Source: a virus. From it: a DNA stretch of 47,962 bases. Of the stretch, positions 1,467-47,962 are shown piece by piece. Under the pieces are notes generated by a model, which ran no database searches, was not told the DNA's origin, and saw only the letters and a list, made by a program, of their open reading frames with translations. Position numbers and translations under genes: made by a program. Where the stretch lies: positions 1 to 47,962 of the IMG/VR virus record IMGVR_UViG_3300021959_010708. One strand, 5' to 3'. Positions within the stretch are counted from its first letter, which is position 1. The number at the start of each line of letters is the position of its first letter.

Positions 1467-1632
1467 AACCGTTTAGACTACCCACGTACAATTTGGGTTT
1501 GACCTTCCTTAATGTCAATTTAAGATCACCCGGTTTCAGTAATCCTACTAACCATCCATCCGTGTGATTGAGTATTTCCAAATCAACCCATTTGTTGTTA
1601 TCTGTGCAGTGTACTTTGACTGTTTCTATCAT
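1441..1632 (-). CDS. Small hypothetical protein (63 aa)
   Basis: A 63-residue, beta-rich, soluble protein beginning MIETVKVHC and ending EFVYKED, with no known motif. An upstream in-frame ATG exists at 1647, but the start at 1632 is preferred. It forms a TAATG overlap with the stop of the alginate-lyase-like gene and has a GGGAG Shine-Dalgarno sequence eight bases upstream. Its translation therefore probably depends on the upstream gene. Function unknown; the short beta-rich shape could be an SH3-like fold, but that is a guess. Confidence 0.6.
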   Translation of the reverse strand: MIETVKVHCTDNNKWVDLEILNHTDGWLVGLLKPGDLKLTLRKVKPKLYVGSLNGYEFVYKED

Positions 1633-2840
1633 TAATTTTTCTCCCATGTAAATTTGGTGACCATCTCTGTGTCGTTGATTGTGTCCTGCCCGTCTACTCC
1701 ATATTCAGAGACCGGTACAGGATAAAAACAACCCAAATCCAAACCTTCTGCAGACCATTCTATCTCATCCTGCAGTTGTATTGTTTCCTTAATCCTTTGT
1801 GAGTTGGGGTGATCCGGAAAATTGTTGACATATACATATGCCCACCCATTGTGTCCATCCATGCCGTTAAATTTTAGCATGTGATAATATTCTAAATCTT
1901 TGTAGTCCTTGCGTTGACCTTTGCCATCTAATCCTTTGTTTTTCCTCGCATGCTTCCACATGATCTCATGATCGTGCATTGCATCCAGCAAGAACTTGAC
2001 TGCGTCATGGAAAGTTTGGCCATTGCTATTGCTGTAATCATAAAGATCTTTACCATTCGATCTGTGTATTTCGGCCACGATTGTTAAAAGATTAAGACCC
2101 TTGGAATAGTAGTGCCAACTCCATGCTCCTCTTTGTGCTTCTCTCCACAATGCTCCATCATCATGCAAGTCGTCTATCGCGAAATGAAATATTTTTTGTC
2201 CTTGTTGAAAGTGTTTTGGATCATTGAAAGTGGCTCCGTACAGCACCCTGGTCAATTGAACATCATAGGTATGGTTCTGACATCCAAAAATGTCTCCACC
2301 TTTACTGCATCTTGACATGGTATATGTGTGATTTGCTTCCCTGTTGATGAATCCAAACAAGTTTTTTGAACGAGATCCCAACATTTCTAAAAATATTTCT
2401 TGCTGTGTGTCGTCCAAATGACCGTTTGATTGAAGTGCATGATAAGAAAAATACAAAGCAAATATGGCTGGTTGCAATCTACCTGCGTTGTCTATACCGT
2501 CACCACCACCTACACCATTGGCGAATTTTTTATCATTATATAATTCTAAAAGATATCTGATAAATTGATCTGCATTTTGTTTTGTTGGTTGGCTCCAATA
2601 AAAAGAAAGGTTCCTGATTGTGTTTCTATTGACTTTTGCATAATCAAAATCATTTTTTTGTCTCATTGTCACCCATTTGAAGTTTTTGTTTGGTGACAAC
2701 AAATGATCTAATTCCGAAACTTGGAATTGTGCGTTTTCAAGACACCTGGGATTGTGGGTTCCTTGTTTAGGAAAAATTTGGTATTCACCTGCATGCAGTG
2801 GTATGCATATCAATACAAAATATAAAATATATCTTATCAT
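1632..2840 (-). CDS. Secreted alginate-lyase-like protein (PL5-type alpha/alpha barrel)
   Basis: A 402-residue protein with a signal peptide (MIRYILYFVLICIPLHA, cleavage after about residue 17). It is predicted to cut uronic-acid polysaccharide by beta-elimination outside the cytoplasm. The family call rests on two blocks that line up with PL5 alginate lyases (AlgL/A1-III): CQNHTYDV (about 187-194), with the catalytic Asn-His, and REAQRGAWSWHYYSKGLN (about 233-250), with the Arg and Tyr, followed by IAE-type helices and NGKDLYDY. The start at 2840 is chosen because a TTGACA-N16-TATACT promoter ends six bases before that ATG; an upstream in-frame TTG lies inside the promoter. It follows the subtilase gene. 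Substrate could be alginate or another uronan of host capsule or matrix. It could also be a catalytically different relative. Confidence 0.72.
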   Translation of the reverse strand: MIRYILYFVLICIPLHAGEYQIFPKQGTHNPRCLENAQFQVSELDHLLSPNKNFKWVTMRQKNDFDYAKVNRNTIRNLSFYWSQPTKQNADQFIRYLLELYNDKKFANGVGGGDGIDNAGRLQPAIFALYFSYHALQSNGHLDDTQQEIFLEMLGSRSKNLFGFINREANHTYTMSRCSKGGDIFGCQNHTYDVQLTRVLYGATFNDPKHFQQGQKIFHFAIDDLHDDGALWREAQRGAWSWHYYSKGLNLLTIVAEIHRSNGKDLYDYSNSNGQTFHDAVKFLLDAMHDHEIMWKHARKNKGLDGKGQRKDYKDLEYYHMLKFNGMDGHNGWAYVYVNNFPDHPNSQRIKETIQLQDEIEWSAEGLDLGCFYPVPVSEYGVDGQDTINDTEMVTKFTWEKN

Positions 2841-2874
2841 CCTTTTAGTATATTGCAAATTTAAGTTTTGTCAA
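2841..2874 (-). promoter_or_regulatory. Sigma70-type promoter, leaderless geometry, for the alginate-lyase-like gene
   Basis: Minus strand: -35 TTGACA at 2869-2874, 16-base spacer, -10 TATACT at 2847-2852, then six bases and the ATG at 2838-2840. Transcription would start at or next to the A of the start codon. Confidence 0.8.
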
Positions 2875-2878
2875 TGTC

Positions 2879-5563
2879 TTACCAAACATATTTCACACCC
2901 AAATTCGCCGTCATCAAGTCATTATCTTCAACAAAAGTGTACCTCGAACTTGCAGAAAAATTCCATGATTCTGATAGTTGTTTGGAATACGCCAACTCCA
3001 CTACCTTAGGAACTTCGCTTGATTTTGCCGAAGCAGAACCACTTGTGAATGTGGTCGAGTTGTCGGTCCAATTATATGCTGTTGGAAGGGTATAATTGAT
3101 ATCACCGTCGACGACATTCAATTGTTCACCCATTTTGATAATGAATTGATTGTTAATGTTCTGATAGGTCATCCCCAAATACCATGATTGTGACTGTATG
3201 TTGGAAGATCCAGTGATGTATGAATCATTGGCAGATTTAACGTCCGAATATCCCCTAATAAAACCACTATTCCATGTCCATTTTTCCGTCACTGAGTAGT
3301 TCATGTCTGCCCCAACATAATTTGTGGTGCTGGACTTGATTGCGAATGATCCTTGGAAGGATGATCCCAACAGACTGCCGTCCTGTTTCATGCGTCCAAA
3401 ACTGTATGTGACGTCCAACTTGTCTGAGTGTTCTACTGATTTTCCATACAGCCAATCATCGCCGTTCTCACTCATTGCAAACAGCATGCCATCCCCTTGC
3501 AGTTTTGTCACTGGTTCATAGTTGACATATTGATTGCCCAGTGCTTGTTCGGTCAATTGAAAGGAAGTGAAATTGTCGTCATCGGCATAGTAATCTCTGT
3601 TATATGAATCCATCACAACTATGGATGAAACTGCGGATATGTTGTCCAACCCACTCATGGATGAGTCGCCCACGATGCCACCTGATATGGCACTGATGGC
3701 TCCGGAAGGTTGCACAGCAACTATGTCACCCTGTGGTTTGGTTGCTTCATTCAAATCCACCAATCCGTGTCCATACACAGCATCAACTCCTGGTGCTCCC
3801 AAGTCTCGGGCGGTTGATGTGATTAATCCTACCAGTTGTTCAGGTCTCAGTTGTGGCCATGCCTGTTTCAACACAGCGATAGATCCTGTCACATAAGGAG
3901 CCGCCATAGAAGTTCCACTCTTGGTGGTTGTGCCACCACCGTTGGCACTGGAAAGAATGTTCACACCTGGTGCCACCACAAAGAAATCTTTGGTGTTGAA
4001 AGTGTCATCACAGCCTGTGGCAACGCCGTCCGTGTACACCACATTGGAACAGATGTGTCCCGCCTTGTTGGACCATGAAGCAATTTGATTGTTGGAGTCG
4101 ACAGCACCCACGATCAACCATTGTCCATTAAGATATAAGTCACCATTCGAATCCACTCTGGTGGCGTAGTGCGAAGGCATCATGGGGTAATCCATCCCAT
4201 AGTTGCCTGCGGAGTTCACAATGATCATGCCATTGTCGATCGCTGTCTGATAATTCGACAGTGTGGCATCTGCAACACCATCCACGGAAGTTTGTCCGGG
4301 CAAGTAGTAAGCATCAGTGCTACCAATTTGTGTCAAGATTGTTGTCGATGTGTTAGCGGATAGGTTGGCCACAGCGGCGCCTTGATTGCTCAACACCACC
4401 ATGGCATCATCGAAATAGGAAAATGAACATCTGCCACTGCTCGAACACAATTTTATTGAAATAAGATCAGCATCATAGGCCACACCGTGTGTGCCTATGT
4501 CATTCTTTGCACCGGCGATGATTCCAGCCACATGCGTGCCGTGACCATTGTCATCTTCTGTGCCAGCAAATCTGTAATTGATGGTTGAAAATCTATCAGA
4601 ATCAAGATCTTCATGGTCAGTGTCTATGCCTGAATCTATCATGCCAACTATCACACCGTCTCCAGTCCAGCCTCTGGCATAGGCATATGAGGCTCCTATC
4701 TGATCCAATGCTGTGCTGTTGTACTCGTCAGTCAAAAATATTTCACCTACGGGCACAGTTGATGTTGCAGTCAATACTTCTTCCACATCGGCGCTTTCGC
4801 TCCAAGTGGTGACTGTTTCTGAAACAGGGTCTGAATCAGTTGATGTTGTTGTGCCATCCGACCAATTAAAAGTTGTCCTTGTGGCTCTGGTGGTTGTTGT
4901 GTGTGTTGGTACTTTGGTTGTGGTGGTCGTGGTTTGATATGTCTTGGTCACTGTGCCGTCCAGTGTAGATTCCACAACATTTCTTGTGGTGATCGCTGTG
5001 GTGATCACACTTTCGCCCACAACCACATCTGTGTTTGTAATTGTCTGAGAAATGCTTGTGCTGACAACAACTTTTTGGCCTTGTCCTTGATCTTTGTATA
5101 AATCTAATCTTTCTTGGCTTGATAGTGAATCGTCATACTCAACTATCTGTTGCACTGCTATGTATTCTGCTGACTGATCGTCGAACTGGCCTTGTTCAAC
5201 TGCCATAGACCATAAACTTTCCTTGCCATCATAATACCTCTTTTTGAATCCTTTCAATGCATAATAGCCTTGTTCCAAGGTCATACTTTGGCTGTCGATT
5301 ATTATGTTGACATTTGCCAGCGAACTCGGATCAAAGTTAGGATGCTGTTCCACCCATTGAAATGCTTGATAGGCTTCATTGATATCTATCTGTTTGTCGT
5401 CGGCGATGTCGATCAAAGCACTGACAAATGAATTAGAAACCACATCGGTGCTGATTGAAATATTTGTAGGATTTGGAACAGAAATAGAAACAGGTCCTCC
5501 CCCACTGCCTCCGCAGTTTGTTAAAAATAGTGATAATAATAGAATACTCACTAATCTTGTCAT
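2879..5563 (-). CDS. Lipid-anchored subtilisin-like serine protease with barrel-like C-terminus
   Basis: An 894-residue S8 peptidase. The N-terminus is a lipoprotein signal with lipobox LTNC (Cys17). A Thr-rich linker covers about residues 200-245. The catalytic triad is complete: Asp310 (GMIDSGIDTDHED), His341 (NGHGTHVAG) and Ser552 (SGTSMAAPYVTG). After residue 640 the sequence becomes an alternating polar/aromatic, Gly/Ser/Asn-rich segment with repeated Y/W-x-x strands, ending LGVKYVW, which resembles an outer-membrane beta barrel. This layout recalls SphB1/NalP-type subtilisin autotransporters, which are lipid-anchored and process surface proteins. A gene of this kind is unexpected in a phage. 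The promoter 5570-5597 fixes the start. It could trim host surface proteins or mature other phage envelope proteins; that is inference. Confidence 0.85.
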   Translation of the reverse strand: MTRLVSILLLSLFLTNCGGSGGGPVSISVPNPTNISISTDVVSNSFVSALIDIADDKQIDINEAYQAFQWVEQHPNFDPSSLANVNIIIDSQSMTLEQGYYALKGFKKRYYDGKESLWSMAVEQGQFDDQSAEYIAVQQIVEYDDSLSSQERLDLYKDQGQGQKVVVSTSISQTITNTDVVVGESVITTAITTRNVVESTLDGTVTKTYQTTTTTTKVPTHTTTTRATRTTFNWSDGTTTSTDSDPVSETVTTWSESADVEEVLTATSTVPVGEIFLTDEYNSTALDQIGASYAYARGWTGDGVIVGMIDSGIDTDHEDLDSDRFSTINYRFAGTEDDNGHGTHVAGIIAGAKNDIGTHGVAYDADLISIKLCSSSGRCSFSYFDDAMVVLSNQGAAVANLSANTSTTILTQIGSTDAYYLPGQTSVDGVADATLSNYQTAIDNGMIIVNSAGNYGMDYPMMPSHYATRVDSNGDLYLNGQWLIVGAVDSNNQIASWSNKAGHICSNVVYTDGVATGCDDTFNTKDFFVVAPGVNILSSANGGGTTTKSGTSMAAPYVTGSIAVLKQAWPQLRPEQLVGLITSTARDLGAPGVDAVYGHGLVDLNEATKPQGDIVAVQPSGAISAISGGIVGDSSMSGLDNISAVSSIVVMDSYNRDYYADDDNFTSFQLTEQALGNQYVNYEPVTKLQGDGMLFAMSENGDDWLYGKSVEHSDKLDVTYSFGRMKQDGSLLGSSFQGSFAIKSSTTNYVGADMNYSVTEKWTWNSGFIRGYSDVKSANDSYITGSSNIQSQSWYLGMTYQNINNQFIIKMGEQLNVVDGDINYTLPTAYNWTDNSTTFTSGSASAKSSEVPKVVELAYSKQLSESWNFSASSRYTFVEDNDLMTANLGVKYVW

Positions 5564-12101: not shown

Positions 12102-12108
12102 TATTTAT
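12102..12108 (-). promoter_or_regulatory. T4-type late promoter motif upstream of the structured leader
   Basis: Minus strand ATAAATA within AATAAATATTTG, just inside the end of the o-spanin gene. Confidence 0.55.
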
Positions 12109-12473
12109 TGTGATTCGTAGTATTCTCGATACTGTTCTAATGTGAGTTTTTGCTTGATCATGTATGCACGGATCTGTGCGAAGTTAGTGGACAGCGTCTC
12201 GTAGTCATCATCTGTGAGGCCAAACAGCACAGGATCCACGTTCTTTTCCTTGAGCTTGGCAAACACTTCCTCCGCGTTTTCTGACGTGATGATGATGAAG
12301 TTTAGATCATCTATCCTTGGAGTTTCTGGATCAGGTAAATCGAGTGGTGCTCTGGGAACTTCAGTCTTGAACACTTCCAATTTCTTAACTGATGAGCAAC
12401 TACTCAGCAGGAACAAAGTTAGGATTAGCAAGGCTAGGACATTCAGCGTTGATTTCACTTGGCTTAACTGCAT
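12105..12473 (-). CDS. Outer-membrane spanin lipoprotein (o-spanin, Rz1-like)
   Basis: A 122-residue lipoprotein with a hydrophobic signal and lipobox LLSSC (Cys about 26). A short proline-rich stretch (VPRAPLDLPDPETPRIDDL) follows, as in Rz1-type spanins. The o-spanin sits in the outer membrane and pairs with the i-spanin to fuse the two membranes in the last step of lysis. The first 74 bases overlap the 3' end of the i-spanin gene in another frame, the hallmark of Rz/Rz1 pairs. An AAGGAG ribosome site precedes the ATG. It is longer than lambda Rz1 (60 aa); the C-terminal extension is unexplained. Confidence 0.8.
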   Translation of the reverse strand: MQLSQVKSTLNVLALLILTLFLLSSCSSVKKLEVFKTEVPRAPLDLPDPETPRIDDLNFIIITSENAEEVFAKLKEKNVDPVLFGLTDDDYETLSTNFAQIRAYMIKQKLTLEQYREYYESQ

Positions 12474-12888
12474 TTAACTCCTTTTCTGTGAGTGGTGATC
12501 CCATGGCAATTTCTACACATCGCAGAGCATTGACTGAGGCTTTGTTGATGATTTTTTCTACCATGCCGGGTTTGGCAATGGCAAGATCACCTATGTCTCG
12601 CTTTTTGCCAGAAGCATTTGTTTTGTTGAACTTGTCATCCAAATTGGCAAGTTCTTTTGTAAGTACCTCTTTGGTTTCTTGTAACTTTTTGTTGGCATTC
12701 ATTATGGACTCGAAGTCTTGTTTTTGCTGTTCTATAACTTGTTGTTGTGATGACACAGCTTCTTCCAATTTGATTTGATTTGCCTTTAGTATGGCATTGT
12801 CTGATCTAAGTTTCATCACATACAATCCAGCACCTGCCAGCGAACTGACCAGGATGCCTACCATCACAAGTTTAAAGGTTCCAAACAT
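12400..12888 (-). CDS. Inner-membrane spanin (i-spanin, Rz-like)
   Basis: A 162-residue protein with one N-terminal membrane anchor (FKLVMVGILVSSLAGAGLYVM) and a long periplasmic coiled coil (about residues 28-90, EEAVSSQQQVIEQQKQDF onward), the standard plan of Rz. A C-terminal Cys-containing segment (ALRCVEIAM...NAECPS) may make a disulfide. It begins in a TAATG overlap with the endolysin stop and overlaps the o-spanin gene. It is expected to bridge the periplasm with the o-spanin. Function inferred from architecture and position, not from residue conservation. Confidence 0.8.
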   Translation of the reverse strand: MFGTFKLVMVGILVSSLAGAGLYVMKLRSDNAILKANQIKLEEAVSSQQQVIEQQKQDFESIMNANKKLQETKEVLTKELANLDDKFNKTNASGKKRDIGDLAIAKPGMVEKIINKASVNALRCVEIAMGSPLTEKELNAVKPSEINAECPSLANPNFVPAE

Positions 12889-13400
12889 TAGATCATTTTA
12901 AGAGCAAGGGCAGTTGTTTCTTCAACCCTTCGAGTCCAACCTCTGCCAAATGTAGAGAATGTAGATAGTGACTCGTAATATTTTTGTCTGCCCATTTGGT
13001 ACAGTTTGATCGTATGCTCAACTCCTTGATCGTCCACATACTCTTTTAATTTTTGTAATGTTGCAGGACCTATGCCACCATCCGGTGTTGTCCCAATCAT
13101 CTTTTGTAGATATTTGGCAGCTCTGCCCGTTCCGGCGTTCACTCCAAAGTCGAAAACGCACAAGTCAAGACCTGCAGGCAAATGATCGCCTTTGACACGA
13201 TCCCAGTAATTTTTCTTGTAGATGGGTGAAACATCTTCCACTGTTAGATCCTTCATGTCTTTGGTTCCGCCCCAATCCTCATACACTCTTTTGGTAACAC
13301 CCAGGTTGGTCTCGCCACCTGGATCTTTGGGATGGTTAACATAACCACCCTCATGATGTAAAATTGTCTCTAAACATTTTTGCCAGTTTGTTGCCGCCAT
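12888..13400 (-). CDS. Endolysin, glycoside hydrolase family 108 (N-acetylmuramidase)
   Basis: A 170-residue muramidase that cleaves the peptidoglycan glycan backbone at lysis. The GH108 signature ILHHEGGYVNHPKDPGGETN is at about residues 13-32, with the catalytic Glu in HHEGG, followed by LGVTKRVYEDW. The C-terminal peptidoglycan-binding part shows FDFGVNAGTGRAAKYLQK and DGGIGPATLQKL. There is no signal peptide, so release should depend on a holin. It is followed directly by i-spanin and o-spanin genes, giving a complete Gram-negative lysis cassette apart from a proven holin. Confidence 0.92.
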   Translation of the reverse strand: MAATNWQKCLETILHHEGGYVNHPKDPGGETNLGVTKRVYEDWGGTKDMKDLTVEDVSPIYKKNYWDRVKGDHLPAGLDLCVFDFGVNAGTGRAAKYLQKMIGTTPDGGIGPATLQKLKEYVDDQGVEHTIKLYQMGRQKYYESLSTFSTFGRGWTRRVEETTALALKMI

Positions 13401-28403: not shown

Positions 28404-28410
28404 TATTTAT
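28404..28410 (-). promoter_or_regulatory. T4-type late promoter motif (leaderless spacing) for 27996-28397
   Basis: Minus strand ATAAATA, six bases before the ATG at 28395-28397, overlapping the stop of the Fe-S carrier gene. Confidence 0.65.
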
Positions 28411-28727
28411 TTTACAGAAAAGGAAGTTCCGCATCCACAGGCCGAAGCCGCATTGGGATTATCGTAGGTGAAATAGGACCCAAATATTTCCTTTTTGTAG
28501 TCTATGCGTGTGCCCAACACGAACATTTCGCACACATCTGCAACCAGCACTTTGACGTCGCCAAACGCCAATTCTTGATCACCATCCTTTTTGCTGTCTT
28601 CTACATCGATTTGATAGTTGAATCCAGCACAACCACCACCTTTGACTCCGAAACGAATGTAAGGTTTGCCGTTGGCATCCAACACTTCTTTCATCTTTTC
28701 TTGTGCTGATTCTGTAACTTCTATCAT
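28407..28727 (-). CDS. A-type Fe-S cluster carrier (IscA/SufA/ErpA family)
   Basis: A 106-residue HesB-like protein. The three invariant cysteines are present: GGGCAGFNY (about residue 33) and the CGCG pair in SACGCGTSFSV near the end. Such proteins accept Fe-S clusters from a scaffold and pass them to apo-enzymes. It has its own late-like motif five bases before the ATG and lies downstream of the SufT-like and Nfu genes, so the three make a cluster-delivery set. Clients could be the three phage radical SAM enzymes. Confidence 0.93.
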   Translation of the reverse strand: MIEVTESAQEKMKEVLDANGKPYIRFGVKGGGCAGFNYQIDVEDSKKDGDQELAFGDVKVLVADVCEMFVLGTRIDYKKEIFGSYFTYDNPNAASACGCGTSFSVK

Positions 28728-28732
28728 ACTAA

Positions 28733-28739
28733 TATTTAA
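28733..28739 (-). promoter_or_regulatory. T4-type late promoter motif (leaderless spacing) for the Fe-S carrier gene
   Basis: Minus strand TTAAATA, five bases before the ATG at 28725-28727. Confidence 0.55.
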
Positions 28740-29045
28740 TCAGAACCCCAGGGCCAATCTGACATCTTCTGACATCATGTCTGGTCCGAATGGTGGATCG
28801 AATGTTGTGATTATCTCACAGATGTCAACACCTTCCACTGATTCTGTGGCTGATTTGATGTCCTCTATGATCATGTCCGCCGCTGGGCAAAAAGCCGATG
28901 TCAGCGTGTGTGTGATCTTCGCTGTGGGTAAATTTTGTAGATCTATGTCGTATATCAGGCCAAGATCATATATGTTGACGCTGATTTCCGGATCATAGAC
29001 GTTCCTTAAATTTTTTACAATCGATTCTTTTATTTGCTCGCTCAC
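28740..29045 (-). CDS. SufT/MIP18-family Fe-S assembly protein (DUF59)
   Basis: A 101-residue protein of the DUF59/MIP18 family. NLRNVYDPEISVNIYDLGLIYDI is the family signature (DPE...N..DLGL), and the conserved Cys is in TSAFCPAADMI. Members (SufT, PaaD, MIP18) help mature Fe-S proteins. It begins in an ATGA overlap with the Nfu gene, which is strong evidence for joint function with it and with the A-type carrier downstream. Confidence 0.9.
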   Translation of the reverse strand: MSEQIKESIVKNLRNVYDPEISVNIYDLGLIYDIDLQNLPTAKITHTLTSAFCPAADMIIEDIKSATESVEGVDICEIITTFDPPFGPDMMSEDVRLALGF

Positions 29046-29563
29046 ACTATCCTCACTTGTTTGATTTCGGGAACTTTGGATGCTATCTTATTGTAGACCG
29101 CTCCAAGGGTGGCTTCGTTGTTAGGGCAACCCCAACAGGATCCATGCATTTGAAGATGCACTATGCCATTTTGATATTTGACAAACTTGATGTCCCCACC
29201 ATCCATTTGCACAGCGGGCCTGATTTCATCTTGGATGATCTGCCTGATTGCACAACATATCTCATCTGTGCAGTATTGATCTGTCTGTCCTGTCTCGATG
29301 AAACACTTATCGGACTCCATCACTTGTTTGACCTTATCGGTAATCTCACCCCATCCCCATTGCGGAAACTTAGTCACGGTGACTTCATGATCCTGTAAAA
29401 GGACATATCTCACTCCCGCGACCCTGAATAACTTTTTCACGAAGTCGTTGGATTTGATGGCGAGATCGATGTCGTACCAAACTGAACCATTGCCCACCAA
29501 CTGAGACCTTGATTTAAATTTCAAAGCATCGGGGTTGGGGGTTGGTTCAGTCTGTACGAACAT
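29042..29563 (-). CDS. Nfu-type Fe-S cluster carrier (NifU C-terminal domain)
   Basis: A 173-residue Nfu protein. The N-terminal domain starts MFVQTEPTPNPDALKF, the Nfu_N signature. The C-terminal NifU domain has IRPAVQMDGGDIKFV and the cluster-binding CxxC in GSCWGCPNN. The ATG at 29563 is chosen because MFVQTEPTPNP is the family's normal start and it forms a TAATG overlap with the superoxide dismutase stop. Nfu hands 4Fe-4S clusters to client enzymes. The set Nfu, SufT-like and A-type carrier, with SOD, forms a compact Fe-S protection and delivery module. Confidence 0.93.
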   Translation of the reverse strand: MFVQTEPTPNPDALKFKSRSQLVGNGSVWYDIDLAIKSNDFVKKLFRVAGVRYVLLQDHEVTVTKFPQWGWGEITDKVKQVMESDKCFIETGQTDQYCTDEICCAIRQIIQDEIRPAVQMDGGDIKFVKYQNGIVHLQMHGSCWGCPNNEATLGAVYNKIASKVPEIKQVRIV

Positions 29564-30195
29564 TACAATTCGAGCATTCTTGATTCGATGAACTTGAAGT
29601 TGATCAAGTTGTTGATCCAAGTTTCCAGATATTTCTTCCTGTCATTTTTGTAGTCGAGATAGTACGAGTGTTCCCACACATCGCATCCCGCCAAAACTTC
29701 AACATCGTCGCCCACCGGATTGTCTGCGTTGGGTGTGGTTTTCCATTTCATCTTGTCGTCTTCTAAAATCAACCAGATCCAGCCTGATCCGAATCTCTTC
29801 ATTCCTGCGTCCACGAACTGGGACTTGAATTCGTCCAAAGATCCAAAGGATTCGTCTATCTTTGCCTGTAGATTTTCCGATGGTTGTTCATACTTCGGAG
29901 TCATGCATTGCCAGAAGATGATGTGATTAAAATTTTGTCCTGCGTTGTTGAAAACGCCCTCGTTAGCATCTCTCGAATCAACTATGATTTGTTTAAGGCT
30001 CTTGCCTTCGTATTCCGAGCCTTTGATTAATTCATTCAATTTGTCGATGTAGGTCTGATGATGCTTGCCATGATGCAGATCCAATGTGTCCCTGCTCATG
30101 TATGGTTCGAGGCTTGTTCTTGAATAGGGCAGTTCCATTAGGGTGAACTTGCCACCTTTCACATTTATATCATCTGCTACTTGATCTAATTTCAT
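29563..30195 (-). CDS. sodB: Iron/manganese superoxide dismutase
   Basis: A 210-residue Fe/Mn SOD that disproportionates superoxide. All four metal ligands are visible: His in LDLHHGKHHQTY, His in NFNHIIFWQCM, and Asp and His in GCDVWEHSYYLDYKNDR. RFGSGWIWLI is the conserved Trp-rich block. About 15 extra N-terminal residues precede the usual start (FTLMELPYS). It has no signal peptide, so it acts in the cytoplasm, where it would protect Fe-S clusters. It is coupled to the Nfu gene by a TAATG overlap and follows the AT-hook peptide gene by one base. Confidence 0.95.
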   Translation of the reverse strand: MKLDQVADDINVKGGKFTLMELPYSRTSLEPYMSRDTLDLHHGKHHQTYIDKLNELIKGSEYEGKSLKQIIVDSRDANEGVFNNAGQNFNHIIFWQCMTPKYEQPSENLQAKIDESFGSLDEFKSQFVDAGMKRFGSGWIWLILEDDKMKWKTTPNADNPVGDDVEVLAGCDVWEHSYYLDYKNDRKKYLETWINNLINFKFIESRMLEL

Positions 30196-30428: not shown

Positions 30429-31460
30429 TCACCACACAGGCGATCCCACAGACACCAATTGGTATTCTGTCGCCAGCAGTGTTGATGCAAGGTTTTTTGC
30501 CTTGGATTCGCATTGGATGTCAAACAGTTCGCCGAATGGTCGTACCCACTCATTGGTTTTATGATGCCAATAAAAATCGGAGTGTGCTCGTATGGTGGCT
30601 TTGTTTTCACCATTCGCAAACAACCAATCTCTGTCTAACAATTTGTTTGCATCTACTTTGTCTTTAAGTATTTCTCTCGGTTGTGAGTAGTGCATCACAG
30701 GACGCACACCACGCCATGAGTCTATGACTCTCTTGATCCTATCATCTGTGTGGGTTATCCATTCGCCTGTGTTCACCCAATGATGATGGATGTCGAAAAC
30801 CAATGCCACGTGTTTTTCAAGTTCGAGTATGTCAGACAATCCCCATTTCATTTCTTCGTTCTCTATGGTGATGCAATTCCTTGCTTCTGGTGAAAGTCGT
30901 GGCAACACATCTATGATGCCCTGTGGGCCACGTGCGCCTGCTATGTGTACATTGATCTTGAAGTCTTGGAAGGTCTTACCGTATCCCATCCAACGGGCCA
31001 TGTTGACATGATATTCGAATTCATCTATGGATCGTTCTATGACATCATCCGACTCCGATGCCAGCACTGTGAACTGTCCGGGATGGAATGAAACCCTAAC
31101 ACCGAGTTGCCTTGCTGTTTCGCCAACTTCCGCAAAGTGTTTCTCCAAATAGTTTATCACGTCTGGTTTTGACCAGAAGTAACGCCACGTGGCTTCGGTT
31201 GCAACCGGAAGAATAGGTGAACTCAAACGACACATCCTCAGTGGTTCAGGCAGTGCGCCTGTGTATTTTATTAGTTCGTGAATAGATGAAATGTTGTGTT
31301 GCATGAGCATCCAAAGTTTTTCTTCTGCTTCATCGCGATGTTCGTTCAACCATCTCACAGTCGTTGCTTTACAGTTTAAAGGAGACTCTGCTTCTTTCAA
31401 CAATTTGGGTTTTAAACTACGATCTGAATGAAGATATTTACAACAGAAGCCAAGACGCAT
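30429..31460 (-). CDS. uvsE: UV damage endonuclease (UvdE/UVDE)
   Basis: A 343-residue TIM-barrel nuclease that nicks 5' of UV photoproducts and other lesions. Family blocks: MRLGFCCKYL at the start; ISSIHELIKYTGALPEPLRMCRLSS; RVSFHPGQFTVL; NVHIAGARGPQG; ITIENEEMKWG; and LVFDIHHHWVNTGEW, which together supply the His, Glu and Asp metal ligands. Length agrees with bacterial UvsE (about 300-330). In surface seawater this would repair sunlight damage to phage DNA. The leaderless promoter at 31467-31494 fixes the start. Confidence 0.95.
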   Translation of the reverse strand: MRLGFCCKYLHSDRSLKPKLLKEAESPLNCKATTVRWLNEHRDEAEEKLWMLMQHNISSIHELIKYTGALPEPLRMCRLSSPILPVATEATWRYFWSKPDVINYLEKHFAEVGETARQLGVRVSFHPGQFTVLASESDDVIERSIDEFEYHVNMARWMGYGKTFQDFKINVHIAGARGPQGIIDVLPRLSPEARNCITIENEEMKWGLSDILELEKHVALVFDIHHHWVNTGEWITHTDDRIKRVIDSWRGVRPVMHYSQPREILKDKVDANKLLDRDWLFANGENKATIRAHSDFYWHHKTNEWVRPFGELFDIQCESKAKNLASTLLATEYQLVSVGSPVW

Positions 31461-31494
31461 AATTGTATTGTACTGTATTTTAAGATTTTGTCAA
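31461..31494 (-). promoter_or_regulatory. Sigma70-type promoter, leaderless geometry, for the UV endonuclease gene
   Basis: Minus strand: -35 TTGACA at 31489-31494, 16-base spacer, -10 TACAAT at 31467-31472, six bases, ATG at 31458-31460. The -35 overlaps the end of the carbamoyltransferase gene. Confidence 0.8.
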
Positions 31495-32976
31495 CACGGT
31501 GACACCATATTTGTTTGTCCAGTCTTTGGCGTCTTGTTCGTTGTTGACCATGGGTTTGCCCTTGATGTTCAGTGACGTGTTCAACAACATGGGGCAACCT
31601 GTTTTATTGTACCATTGTTCCAGCAGTGATCTGAACCCTGGTGATCCATCATTTTTGCCCACAGTTTGTATCCTTGATGTGTTGTCCACATGCACTATGG
31701 CAGGGAACTCTTCTGGGCGTTTACACACCGCTGTATACTGCATATAAGGGCTCTGTGTGCCTATTGTAGATGTGTCGAAGTAATCTGACACATATTCCTC
31801 CAATATGGCCGGAGCGAAGGGTCTGAACTCTTGCCTGTGTTTGATTTGATTGACCATGTCCTTGATGTTGGGTCCTCTTGGATCCGCCAACAGTGATCTG
31901 TGCCCCAATGCTCTGGGACCAAACTCTGCACGGCCATTGGCCACGCCAACGATCTTGTACTTGTCCAAGTGCTGTATGAGATCATAAACAGGATAATCAC
32001 CCTCGATGTCGTAACCGAGGTATGGCCCTGGCCATTCGATCCTACCTATGGAATCCAGCACACAACCTACCGAGGATCCAGCATCTCCCGGGTTGGGCAC
32101 TATCCAGACATTTTCGTAATATTTTTTTGCGATGGGATTGGCCACGCAGTTTAGAGCACAACCTCCCACCAACACCAAATTTTTGGATCCAAGGGTGTAT
32201 CTGGCTTCCTTGATGATCCTTTGGAAATTTTCTTCGTACAATGCTTGGGTGGTAGCGGCCAAGTCACAAAGGTCTTGGATGGTGTTCGCTTCTGGCAACC
32301 AACCCTGGCAGCCTCTGTGCAAGTTGATGTTAAATTTTGTTGAGAATCCTTGGTTGTCGTAATCAAAGAAGTTTCTTTTCATCTCGCCGAAGTATTTGTT
32401 GGGATCTCCCAAAGCACTCATGCCCATCAAGATGTATTCTTCTTCGTTGGGTTTGAAATGCACCCTCTGTGTCATGGCAGAATACCATAGGCCCACCGAG
32501 TGTGGATAATTTTGCGAATAAACTTTTTTTAACTTTTCTCCCTTGCCTTCCCATACAGTGAGGCATTCCCATTCACCTATTGAGTCGATCACCACAATAG
32601 TTGCATCATTGTAAACACTTGTAAAGTAACCTGCCGCCGCATGGCTCCTATGATGCGAGTGCATCTTGAATTTGGTGAATCTGTCTTTTTTGATGCCGAA
32701 GTCTTCGAGGTGTGCTTGAATGGATGGTTTGTTGAAGACCAAATCCCATTGGCCCGCCCAAGCCTGCCTTGTTTTTTTGATCCATGTATTCTCGTAAAAA
32801 TGTATTTCGAATGGGTGGCCAAACTTTAGAGCATCATCGATGATCAATTGATTGAGCCATTTGTCATTTTTTATGCCAGAATATCTTTCTGCATGGCTGG
32901 CAAAAACCAATTTTTTATCGTCAAATACTGCCAAGGCCGCATCATGGGCCAGTGCTGATATACCCCACCTAATCAT
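31480..32976 (-). CDS. NodU/TobZ-family carbamoyltransferase
   Basis: A 498-residue enzyme expected to transfer a carbamoyl group (via carbamoyl-adenylate) to a sugar hydroxyl. The Kae1-like N-terminal domain shows GISALAHDAALAVFDD, HHRSHAAAGYFTS (metal-binding His) and VVIDSIGEWE. The YrdC-like C-terminal domain shows GRAEFGPRALGHRSLLADPR and LLNTSLNIKGKPMV. Length is somewhat shorter than TobZ (about 570). Phage members are known from marine T4-like phages; proposed roles are glycan or modified-base decoration. It starts in a TAATG overlap with a 38-aa gene. Confidence 0.92.
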   Translation of the reverse strand: MIRWGISALAHDAALAVFDDKKLVFASHAERYSGIKNDKWLNQLIIDDALKFGHPFEIHFYENTWIKKTRQAWAGQWDLVFNKPSIQAHLEDFGIKKDRFTKFKMHSHHRSHAAAGYFTSVYNDATIVVIDSIGEWECLTVWEGKGEKLKKVYSQNYPHSVGLWYSAMTQRVHFKPNEEEYILMGMSALGDPNKYFGEMKRNFFDYDNQGFSTKFNINLHRGCQGWLPEANTIQDLCDLAATTQALYEENFQRIIKEARYTLGSKNLVLVGGCALNCVANPIAKKYYENVWIVPNPGDAGSSVGCVLDSIGRIEWPGPYLGYDIEGDYPVYDLIQHLDKYKIVGVANGRAEFGPRALGHRSLLADPRGPNIKDMVNQIKHRQEFRPFAPAILEEYVSDYFDTSTIGTQSPYMQYTAVCKRPEEFPAIVHVDNTSRIQTVGKNDGSPGFRSLLEQWYNKTGCPMLLNTSLNIKGKPMVNNEQDAKDWTNKYGVTVLTKS

Positions 32977-33092
32977 TATTCGTAGATAAAAGGATCTCTT
33001 TTCTTGAGTTCTTTGATTTTTTTACGATAGGCTAATTCGGATTTGATTTTCCGATAGGGCCATGTGATAATTGATAATATCTTTCTAATCAT
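32976..33092 (-). CDS. Small basic protein ending RDPFIYE (38 aa)
   Basis: A 38-codon frame from ATG at 33092 to TAA at 32976: MIRKILSIITWPYRKIKSE ... KELKKRDPFIYE. It overlaps the end of queD by eight bases and forms a TAATG overlap with the carbamoyltransferase start. The sequence is strongly basic and amphipathic with a WPY motif. I recall closely similar short proteins in marine T4-like phages, which supports it being real. It might sit at the membrane. Function unknown. Confidence 0.65.
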   Translation of the reverse strand: MIRKILSIITWPYRKIKSELAYRKKIKELKKRDPFIYE

Positions 33093-33537
33093 TGCATTCG
33101 TATATAGCAGAATTGTTTTCATGTTCCCAAATTTCTACCTTGCTTACCTTGACCCTGTTGTTGGACTGTTTCTTTGCCCAGTCGTCCACATAGTCATACA
33201 CGAATTTGCATGATGCTTCTATGCCAGGACCATATCCTTTGGTCACATCCATGATATTGATGTTTATAACTCCAATTTGATGCAATTTTTTAATATCTTC
33301 AAGATTAGGATCATCCGAAGCGATCAGTGTTCTGTGATCCCACTGTTCTTCCAACCATGACTTGATTTCACGCAAATAACCAAAATCCATAACCCATTGT
33401 CTGTGATCCAGTTCTCCGCTGAAAGTTATCTGGACATGTCTTCCGTATCCGTGTATGTGTTTGCAGTGTCCGTCATCTCGCCATTGCCTGTGTCCTGTAC
33501 AGATAGGACCGAATCTCTTTGTTGAATAATAATTCAT
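33085..33537 (-). CDS. queD: 6-carboxytetrahydropterin synthase (QueD-type)
   Basis: A 150-residue T-fold enzyme that makes 6-carboxy-5,6,7,8-tetrahydropterin, the second step toward preQ0. Zinc ligands His16, His27 and His29 and catalytic Cys25 fall in CTGH and CKHIHGYG. WVMDFGYLREIKSWLEEQWDHR is the conserved MDFxxLK...D/H block, and VEIWEHENNSAIY is the C-terminal Glu/pterin-binding strand. A QueC-like gene lies at 37546-38256, pointing to a 7-deazaguanine product for DNA or RNA modification. An AAGGAGA ribosome site precedes the ATG. Confidence 0.9.
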   Translation of the reverse strand: MNYYSTKRFGPICTGHRQWRDDGHCKHIHGYGRHVQITFSGELDHRQWVMDFGYLREIKSWLEEQWDHRTLIASDDPNLEDIKKLHQIGVININIMDVTKGYGPGIEASCKFVYDYVDDWAKKQSNNRVKVSKVEIWEHENNSAIYECND

Positions 33538-40487: not shown

Positions 40488-41276
40488 TTAGAATGCTACA
40501 GAAACACCCATTGCTGGTGTTACTTCTTTAGAGTCTAAATTGTAGTTTGCTTCCACATAGTAACCAAGATCTTTCCAAGTTGATTTGTAGCCTGCACCTA
40601 CGTTCTTTGACCAGTCACCCTCGTCACCGTCGACATATGCTGAAACAGGACCCATTGCTACGATTGACTCGTAAGCAACTTCATTTGTCAATGTTTCGTC
40701 ATGTGTTACAACTGTGGACAAGTTTACTGATTCGTTCAAGTCAAATGCTACAGAACCTGCAAAGACGTTGTTGTCATTTGAGATTGTGTGATTAACTGCC
40801 GCTCCAACTGAGAATTTATCAACTGATGTTGAAAATTTCGCTTGGATTGTTGAGAAATCAGAAATGTCTGTGTCTGTGTCTGTAAACAAACCTCTCACTG
40901 ATAATGCACCGAAGTTACCGATGATGCTCTCACCTGCATCACTTGGGTTAGCAAGTGTGTTTGCACCCACAGCTTCAAGACCGCCACCGATAAAGATGTC
41001 GCCCTGGTCACCGTATGATACAGACGCAGTGTCTGTGATGTTTGCACCGATCTGATATTCATCCATGATGAACTGATCTGATGAGTTTGTTTTTGCTTTG
41101 ATGTAACCGAAAGCAACTCCTGAGTCGCCGTTCACATCAAATTTGATTGATTCAGTTGAGATGTAATCATTACTTGCGTTTTCTGTAATGTCCACTTCCA
41201 CAGTACCGGTAATAGTGGCAGCTTGTGTAACACCTGCAAAACCTAAAGCAATCATAAGTGCTATTAGTTTCTTCAT
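40488..41276 (-). CDS. Gram-negative-type porin
   Basis: A 262-residue outer-membrane barrel. The signal peptide is MKKLIALMIALGFAGVTQA with cleavage before ATITG. The mature part consists of alternating amphipathic strands (ITGTVEVDIT, FGYIKAKTNS, ASVSYGDQGDIFIG, FSVGAAVNHTI, GAGYKSTWKD, YYVEANYNLD) and ends GVSVAF, with the C-terminal Phe recognised by the BAM machinery. Acidic overall. It has its own strong leadered sigma70-type promoter, GAGGAG ribosome site and terminator, so it is an independent unit. Phage porins can replace host porins to block superinfection, or alter nutrient uptake. Confidence 0.88.
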   Translation of the reverse strand: MKKLIALMIALGFAGVTQAATITGTVEVDITENASNDYISTESIKFDVNGDSGVAFGYIKAKTNSSDQFIMDEYQIGANITDTASVSYGDQGDIFIGGGLEAVGANTLANPSDAGESIIGNFGALSVRGLFTDTDTDISDFSTIQAKFSTSVDKFSVGAAVNHTISNDNNVFAGSVAFDLNESVNLSTVVTHDETLTNEVAYESIVAMGPVSAYVDGDEGDWSKNVGAGYKSTWKDLGYYVEANYNLDSKEVTPAMGVSVAF

Positions 41277-46720: not shown

Positions 46721-46966
46721 CTACAAGGATCTATTGGCATGGTGTGAGATGTACATCTTGTCAAGTAGGTAAAACCAAACACCATTTATCATGGGTTCGA
46801 TCAGTGCGTCAACGGCCGCAAGTTCGAGGTCCGCTCCTGTGATCAATCTGTTGCAGGTCATCGCTATAATAATATGTCCCACAGTGTATATGATTGCTCT
46901 GGTGACGGATGAATGCCCCACAATCCTTTTGAGCAAGTTCCATATACCATATCTAAATTCTGTCAT
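46721..46966 (-). CDS. DUF2061-like small membrane protein (81 aa)
   Basis: An 81-residue protein with two hydrophobic segments: VTRAIIYTVGHIIIAMTCNRLITG and LAAVDALIEPMINGVWFYLLDKMY. The layout R-x-I-x-K/T...T-x-x-I/L-x-x-x-(L/I)TG...A...E...Y-x-x-D/E matches DUF2061 proteins (short inner-membrane proteins of unknown role). The leader carries an AGGAAAAAG ribosome site. It has both an early-type and a late-type promoter. Function unknown. Confidence 0.75.
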   Translation of the reverse strand: MTEFRYGIWNLLKRIVGHSSVTRAIIYTVGHIIIAMTCNRLITGADLELAAVDALIEPMINGVWFYLLDKMYISHHANRSL

Positions 46967-46993: not shown

Positions 46994-47021
46994 ATTATAC
47001 AAGATATTTATAGAGTGTCAA
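46994..47021 (-). promoter_or_regulatory. Dual early/late promoter of the DUF2061-like gene
   Basis: Minus strand: -35 TTGACA at 47016-47021, 16-base spacer, -10 TATAAT at 46994-46999. Within the spacer is a perfect T4 late consensus TATAAATA (47005-47012). A conventional 27-base leader follows. Confidence 0.78.
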
Positions 47022-47032
47022 CCACTGCCGTT

Positions 47033-47242
47033 TTAATTTGGTTTTGTATAAACATCTGGCTGTTTTTCCACACAGAACATCCTAACCATGCTGTGTGTGG
47101 CCACAAGGGTCCTGTTGTAGCCGGCTTGGTAACGCAGGCAGGTTTCTATGTTGGGCATTTCCACTATGGGCAGTTTGTCAAAGGGTTCCCATTTTTCCAA
47201 CTCCATGTTGAATATCAGAGCGATGAGGAATATCTTTATCAT
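47033..47242 (-). CDS. Small secreted or membrane-anchored protein coupled to curlin gene (69 aa)
   Basis: A 69-residue protein with a short hydrophobic start (MIKIFLIALIFNMELE) and a mature-like part containing NIETCLRYQAGYN and MVRMFCVEKQPD. Two Cys may pair in the periplasm. It begins in an ATGA overlap with the curlin-repeat gene, so the two are made together; a chaperone or assembly helper is possible. The signal is short and its cleavage uncertain. Confidence 0.6.
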   Translation of the reverse strand: MIKIFLIALIFNMELEKWEPFDKLPIVEMPNIETCLRYQAGYNRTLVATHSMVRMFCVEKQPDVYTKPN

Positions 47243-47962
47243 TGTTGGGTGACTGTGGTCGTGCCACAGCCTGCTGTGTTGGTGCAGTTTTGGGTCAGCA
47301 CATAGTTCTGGCTGGTGGTTCCCGACTGGGTGAGATCCAGTGTGGCACTGTATCCAGTCATTGAAATTGAAGCATTGTGATTGCCGGATCCGTCCTGGGT
47401 GACATCCACAGTTTGATCACTGCCAACAGATATTTCCACGTAGTGTGTGCCAGTGCCCTGCTGATACAGATCTATGTCGTTGTCATCGCCCTGTGCTGAG
47501 ATGAATGCCTTCTTGTCACCGTCATTGATTTGACTGGAAAGAATATTGTTGTAATCACCATCAAGGTCGATGGAAAGGAAATGTCCTGAGTTGCCCACGC
47601 CGTCGTTGTGAGTTTGAGTGCCACTTATTGTGTTGTGATCACCGTTGATGTCCACGATCATCCTGTTGTCGTCTGCACCGGTGGTGCCACCTTGATTCAG
47701 CGTGGTCGAATTGTAATCACCCAAGAGTTTGAACAGCGTCACATTGTTGTTGCCACGCTGTGTCATGATGATGGAATTGTTGCTGCCTGTGATGTCAGCC
47801 CTGACTTTGCTGTTGGTGGTAGAAGTTGTGCCAGCAATCAGATTGTCGTTGCCATCCTGTGTGATGTTGAGGGTGTTGTTGTCGCCCACTTGATTGATGT
47901 AGATGCTGTTGCCATCGTTGGTCACTGCTCTGGCATTGGTGACGGTTGTGGTCTGTGCCGAT
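47239..47962 (-). CDS. Curlin-repeat protein (N-terminus cut by right edge)
   Basis: An open frame of 241 codons runs off the right edge; the visible start SAQTTTVTNARAVTNDG looks like the first residues after a signal-peptide cut. The body has about eight curlin-type repeats of roughly 22-24 residues with spaced Asn, Gln and Gly: IYINQVGDNNTLNITQDGNDN, SIIMTQRGNNNVTLFKL and ASISMTGYSATLDLTQSG are typical fragments. A GTG at 47925 could start a frame inside the repeats, but the frame continues upstream without a stop. Such repeats build extracellular amyloid fibres (CsgA/CsgB). The end carries two Cys (LTQNCTNTAGCGTT). Its companion genes should lie beyond the edge. Confidence 0.85.
   Translation of the reverse strand, partial: SAQTTTVTNARAVTNDGNSIYINQVGDNNTLNITQDGNDNLIAGTTSTTNSKVRADITGSNNSIIMTQRGNNNVTLFKLLGDYNSTTLNQGGTTGADDNRMIVDINGDHNTISGTQTHNDGVGNSGHFLSIDLDGDYNNILSSQINDGDKKAFISAQGDDNDIDLYQQGTGTHYVEISVGSDQTVDVTQDGSGNHNASISMTGYSATLDLTQSGTTSQNYVLTQNCTNTAGCGTTTVTQQ

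Follow-up and report, generated by a model that had tools for sequence, protein, structure and literature searches.

What kind of protein does a phage genome encode when its sequenced part breaks off within a gene rich in curlin-like repeats, and what would such a protein do for the phage? The window analyzed here is a virus record of 47,962 bases (IMG/VR IMGVR_UViG_3300021959_010708) with no further sequence of its own. At its right edge, a minus-strand frame (47239-47961; feature 47239..47962, minus strand) stays open up to the contig end, where the gene is cut, and encodes 240 residues that form the C-terminal part of a secreted PA14-curlin protein. The Pfam repeat model Curlin_rpt (PF07012) matched four stretches of this protein (E=6.2e-12; 45.7 bits against a cut-off of 20.7), which makes it a curlin by the Pfam repeat definition. 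The comparison with the independent second curlin of phage Melnitz gave 78.5 bits (78 when rounded), whereas the best of 2000 composition-preserving shuffles of the window protein gave -0.7, and chance repeat similarity is ruled out by this test; the second curlin of HTVC008M scored 133.7 bits. In an AlphaFold model, the curlin part folds into about 19 short strands in a solenoid, equivalent to about 9-10 repeats, and in structure comparisons it matches other beta-solenoids best (Z about 11). Sequence comparison points to a single solved relative, the curlin protein 8c50 (E=9e-7), which is absent among the structural matches listed, where PA14 proteins and other solenoids dominate. The curlin part therefore models as a beta-solenoid. 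These results bear out the curlin-type repeats described in an earlier note on this DNA, and the finding of a curlin-repeat protein at the window end is confirmed. Amyloid-fibre formation by this curlin is putative.

Because the record ends inside the gene, we sought the N-terminus in relatives. Over 1,204 nt at its end, the window differs from the viral contig L002 by 3 mismatches (99.75% identity). L002 runs 10 kb further, and in this way it supplied both the rest of the gene and a csg operon when the contig was extended rightward as the earlier note had proposed. The full gene (L002 9419-10723) encodes 434 aa, the first ~194 of which fall outside the window. It begins with a signal peptide, followed by a PA14 domain (PF07691, E=3.6e-9, over the cut-off), a low-confidence linker and the ~9-10 curlin repeats. 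The signal peptide, which lies outside the window and was judged by eye, is of the Sec type expected of a curlin, with a basic start, a hydrophobic stretch and the end ..VPDARA/D. Since the full gene places the head upstream, the SAQTTT segment of the window, previously read as a mature secreted N-terminus, is actually the linker behind the PA14 head, and the true signal peptide is off the window. The head of the window genome itself is inferred from L002; among pairs whose curlin parts are at least 95% identical the head type was the same in 5/5, and at 80-90% curlin identity it was the same in 18 and different in 19.

The gene is the last of a block in L002 that consists of csgF, csgG, a first curlin, fecR and then the second curlin, with Pfam matches to CsgG (E=6.2e-56), CsgF (E=4.6e-17) and FecR (E=9.5e-10); the linkage to csgG and csgF is a further mark of a curlin. 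Farther upstream are two small membrane proteins, an autotransporter-type barrel and a CHASE2/guanylate-cyclase protein. The order csgF-csgG-curlin-fecR-curlin is common to the fetched viral loci that are long enough and to the cultured phages HTVC008M and Melnitz, and the combination typical of a phage T8SS, this order with an adenylate cyclase nearby, occurs in L002 and in many viral loci. No CsgE was seen in the phage csg modules. The window gene belongs to a phage type VIII (curli) secretion operon. We also observed that the autotransporter beta-barrel protein (L002 4188-5711, plus strand), located between the cyclase and the csg operon, makes this the only phage among the loci with one. 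In addition, most loci encode, close to the csg operon, a pair of small single-span proteins whose tails are coiled-coil-like (phrog_18771; L002 5708-6264, minus strand, and relatives), and these look unlike the histidine kinases placed before csgF in a 2022 paper (PMC9599517).

The module has the genes of the pelagiphage T8SS (PMC7029224, PMC9599517) in the same order: small genes, csgF, csgG, a curlin, fecR, a second curlin and an adenylate cyclase, with no csgE seen. It differs in that the clamp loader of the window phage is jumbo-phage-like and the cyclase is divergent and upstream. At the same operon place, HTVC008M encodes AGE60352, whose curlin part is 42% identical and which also has a PA14 head (E=2.7e-6), despite which it is still annotated as ‘hypothetical’. 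The Melnitz counterpart QZI94832 (curlin part 32% identical, same operon place) has no head domain, unlike the L002 gene. Bacterial CsgA/CsgB (Escherichia; 8c50) share the curlin repeat signature, the Sec signal and the CsgG/CsgF partners, whereas the phage second curlin is longer, headed and provided with an invariant C-terminal Cys pair. The codons of this pair (C-x5-C) lie at 47266..47286 (minus strand). Both cysteines that the earlier note had called atypical are present; however, two Cys occur within the last 22 residues in 41/41 distinct relatives, so that the pair is a family trait and not an oddity. It is likely that it closes the solenoid end as a disulfide cap.

Downstream of the curlin gene, and joined to it by an exact ATGA overlap, is a gene for a short two-Cys protein of 69 aa with a hydrophobic N-terminus (47033..47242, minus strand). 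It had been proposed to be a coupled small secreted partner. The coupling holds, but a profile search of all fetched viral loci found the protein in L002 and L025 only (the L025 relative is 62% identical and has the same overlap), which rules it out as a general operon component; at the same place, other loci encode small two-Cys proteins without detectable similarity to it. Its start has a short hydrophobic stretch and no clear signal-peptidase site, and on this basis it may possibly be exported. The next gene encodes a DUF2061 small membrane protein (46721..46966, minus strand; PF09834, E=2.4e-5), with relatives in L025 and L064, and probably forms its own transcription unit after the operon. 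Upstream of it is the T4-type late promoter-like motif TATAAATA (47005..47012, minus strand; L002 10950-10957 via the overlap). The same motif is found before csgF in 15 of 35 distinct loci, in 14 of them at the identical place, where it sits unusually near the start codon, and before none of the fecR, second-curlin and cyclase genes tested. L002 has CTAAATA at the csgF motif place, and no sigma-70 promoter was found before its csgF. Because the motif precedes csgF in 15/35 loci, late expression of the csg block is suggested.

Next, we analyzed the relatives of the second curlin. One scan provided 22 loci; a profile scan of viral contigs, in which 110 candidate stretches encoded a relative, provided 79. 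Six cultured-phage records matched (two of HTVC008M and four of Melnitz). No second-curlin relative was found in 84,980 GTDB species genomes at the sensitivity used. A genome scan with the FecR-domain protein returned four MAG contigs (42-49% identity) and, because each carries a phage-type csg module, these are likely phage contigs binned into MAGs.

Two head types occur among the 41 distinct, complete headed curlins: PA14 in 15 of them and, in the other 26, an unrelated domain of about 190-240 aa whose start is predicted to be Rossmann-like; the second curlins of Melnitz, L014, L015 and L025 are headless. The Rossmann-like head gave no significant profile or fold match (best Foldseek E=0.04, to IFT52, with a model pLDDT of 54). 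The PA14 head belongs to the PA14 domains by both profile and fold: its model matched PA14 lectins, flocculins and other PA14-containing proteins at Z 8.0-10.8, and a profile built from the 15 heads matched the PA14 domain of an RTX adhesin, 6m8m (E=9e-6). Asp-Asp-Gly (D110-D111-G112) is invariant in 15/15 PA14 heads and agrees by sequence with the DcisD Ca2+/sugar site. In MpPA14, the DcisD pair holds a calcium ion that binds sugar (PMC8092209), and the phage head may bind sugar likewise. Thus the phage domain is like the PA14 lectins of RTX adhesins and yeast flocculins (6m8m, MpPA14, Flo5) in its fold and its DcisD-type Asp-Asp-Gly; however, it is mounted on a curlin fibre domain, while RTX adhesins use an RTX stalk and flocculins a yeast wall anchor.

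The curlin tree implies at least 10 changes of head type, at least 7 of them on well-supported branches, a count to be read with the caution that the curlin part may itself recombine and that two long branches meet in the tree. The pair L005/L006 is a clean head-cassette exchange on a shared scaffold: base identity is 80-100% from fecR to the second-curlin start, drops to 21-39% across the head, and returns to 77-94% over the curlin part and to 91-100% further downstream. The dN/dS values (0.10-0.20 for the curlin part versus 0.13-0.49 for the heads) indicate purifying selection on the curlin part and mostly faster evolution of the heads. Exchange also extends to the entire csgF-curlin block, which is seen to be replaced between otherwise close phages: L064 and L002 are 91% identical in the cyclase and 85 and 97% in the small membrane proteins, and the clamp loader of the L064 contig is 94% identical to that of the window, but csgF, csgG, the first curlin, fecR and the second curlin show 37-57% identity only. 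Such block replacement is apparently undescribed, as is a second curlin whose N-terminal domain is of either of two unrelated types, exchanged on a conserved curlin scaffold at least 7-10 times.

The fecR gene of the phage module has been labelled a regulator (PMC9599517). The full-length FecR-domain proteins have an apparent N-terminal signal peptide and no visible cytoplasmic part; although the FecR domain is present, the membrane-joined cytoplasmic sigma-binding end of FecR-type anti-sigma proteins was not seen in them. An end strand resembling N-x-I-x-I-x-Q occurs in 49/51 FecR tails, versus 1.3 in shuffles, and 47 tails have a pair of such strands, for which the usual spacing of 20-22 residues is near the period of curlin repeats. 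Since the profile-profile comparison of the C-tail with curlin is weak (E=0.025, probability 2%), though still the best-scoring segment of the protein, its identity as a true curlin repeat is only suggestive. A fibre-associated role seems more natural for these proteins than gene regulation, and secreted-looking FecR proteins ending in curlin-like strands are apparently undescribed.

The gene content of the window includes a T4-like baseplate connector, endolysin, Rz/Rz1-type spanins and PhoH. The closest matches to the clamp loader of the window are those of the 285-kb PA5oct-type Pseudomonas phages (56%), and PA5oct is among the closest for ClpA (42%); the DNA ligase showed no PA5oct affinity. 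Related csg contigs share the window clamp loader at 71-94%, and the HTVC008M-type contig at 37%. Based on the clamp loader and ClpA affinities, the csg module appears to occur also in a jumbo-like lineage, besides pelagimyophages and HTVC023P-type podophages, a placement that is provisional given the few markers. A PA5oct-nearest clamp loader in a csg-bearing phage is apparently undescribed. Elsewhere on the minus strand of the window, adjoining genes for an A-type Fe-S carrier, a DUF59/FeS assembly protein, an Nfu scaffold and a Fe/Mn superoxide dismutase (28407-30195) form a compact Fe-S repair and oxidative-stress set. An alginate-lyase-family protein lies beside a subtilase with a lipoprotein-like signal (1632-5563), and the phage may possibly have exported enzymes that break down polysaccharide and protein. 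UV-endonuclease UvdE, NodU-type carbamoyltransferase and PTPS/QueD-like genes stand in a row (30429-33537), and a signal-peptide protein like a small outer-membrane porin (40488-41276) has no Pfam or PHROG match above threshold.

We consider it reasonably probable that the curlin sequence at the window end is the half that builds the fibre in a curli subunit encoded by the phage and secreted, and that this subunit bears an adhesin head at its N-terminus. The sequences themselves establish the repeats, the operon, the signal peptide, the PA14 fold with its invariant Asp-Asp, the head swapping and the purifying selection on the fibre part; polymerisation, sugar binding, timing and benefit to the phage are what we infer. 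In the proposed mechanism, the csgF-csgG-curlin-fecR-curlin block would be expressed during infection, probably late, Sec would export the curlin subunits, and the CsgG/CsgF pore would pass them unfolded across the outer membrane. The curlin repeats would then stack as a beta-solenoid fibre anchored on the infected cell, and the second curlin would show its head, a PA14 lectin here and a Rossmann-like domain in relatives. This head may bind glycans on neighbouring cells or particles, with the outcome that fresh hosts or debris are held near the burst, or that the cell is masked from rivals. A surface-glue role of the window protein, as the earlier note had imagined, is plausible. Several points count against the fibre reading: the fact that no CsgE was seen, the unclumped Melnitz cultures (PMC9004378), the position of the head outside the window, and the need for a Ca2+-binding PA14 domain to remain unfolded for CsgG passage.

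Other explanations were weighed against these data. The second curlin could be a non-polymerising cell-surface lectin whose beta-solenoid is merely a stalk. We kept this as a rival because solenoids need not polymerise, and beta-solenoids often do not (PMC10192328); solenoid scaffolds are common among adhesins and enzymes, and the N-terminal head and Cys-closed C-terminal end could cap both edges. However, the gene has csgF, csgG and a further curlin gene as neighbours, its product retains the Q/N ladder of curlins, and we regard the stalk as unlikely. A role in lysis was proposed for Melnitz (PMC9004378), in which the CsgG/CsgF pore would set lysis timing like a pinholin, with the curlins as pore substrates or plugs. 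Small membrane genes flank the operon, one with a weak holin match (E=0.009); nevertheless, the window phage already encodes an endolysin (E=1e-53), after which come overlapping genes for Rz and Rz1-type spanins (12105-13400, minus strand), which argues against CsgG as a lysis pore, and a pore alone leaves the purifying selection on the curlin and the head swapping unexplained, so that we find this role rather improbable. It seems still more doubtful that the module serves uptake via a CsgG pore that stands open, the fibre genes being of secondary importance, as was suggested earlier (PMC7029224, PMC9599517), given that the lectin heads, their swapping and the conserved curlins would then have no explanation. 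Finally, it is very hard to credit that the protein is a virion fibre or tail spike whose repeats resemble curlin by chance. Phage depolymerase solenoids loosely match the model (7vul, Z 10.1), and the earlier note had named a tail-fibre anchor in the full gene as the result that would speak against a secreted curlin. The full gene in L002 has no N-terminal virion anchor and instead has a signal peptide, PA14 and curlin repeats within a csgF-csgG operon, and a T4-like tail protein is located elsewhere in the window. The tail-fibre reading is rejected on the lack of an anchor and the presence of the csg operon.

A phage with curli is not in itself new, although the earlier note thought that a phage secreting such fibres would be remarkable. 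In 2020, csgF/csgG were described from pelagimyophages, and ‘sibling capture’ was put forward as their use (PMC7029224). A 2022 study described full modules comprising curlins, FecR and a cyclase, and reported that these are passed between phage families and expressed in the sea (PMC9599517). For Melnitz, a role in lysis was preferred by the authors, whose cultures did not clump (PMC9004378), and a further T4-like environmental genome has curli genes (PMC7198788). The main text of PMC9599517 has no mention of PA14 or an adhesin, and we found no paper whose main text joins curlin and PA14 in one protein. Thus, phage curli are known as a kind, and the headed, head-swapping curlin is apparently undescribed.

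Phage curli have had no agreed fibre function since 2020. Because the fibre subunit has a lectin-type head, and because the heads are swapped like surface adhesins, adhesion is favoured over uptake or lysis. As a broader idea, which we advance only tentatively, marine phages may run a modular, exchangeable adhesin display on amyloid fibres, with unrelated heads recombined onto a conserved curlin scaffold, CsgG/CsgF secretion out of the dying host and the FecR protein in the fibre, that would catch the next hosts or particles. The jumbo-like lineage would be added to the known carriers of the csg module and, if the heads function as adhesins, the infected cell may thus gain an exchangeable surface glue.
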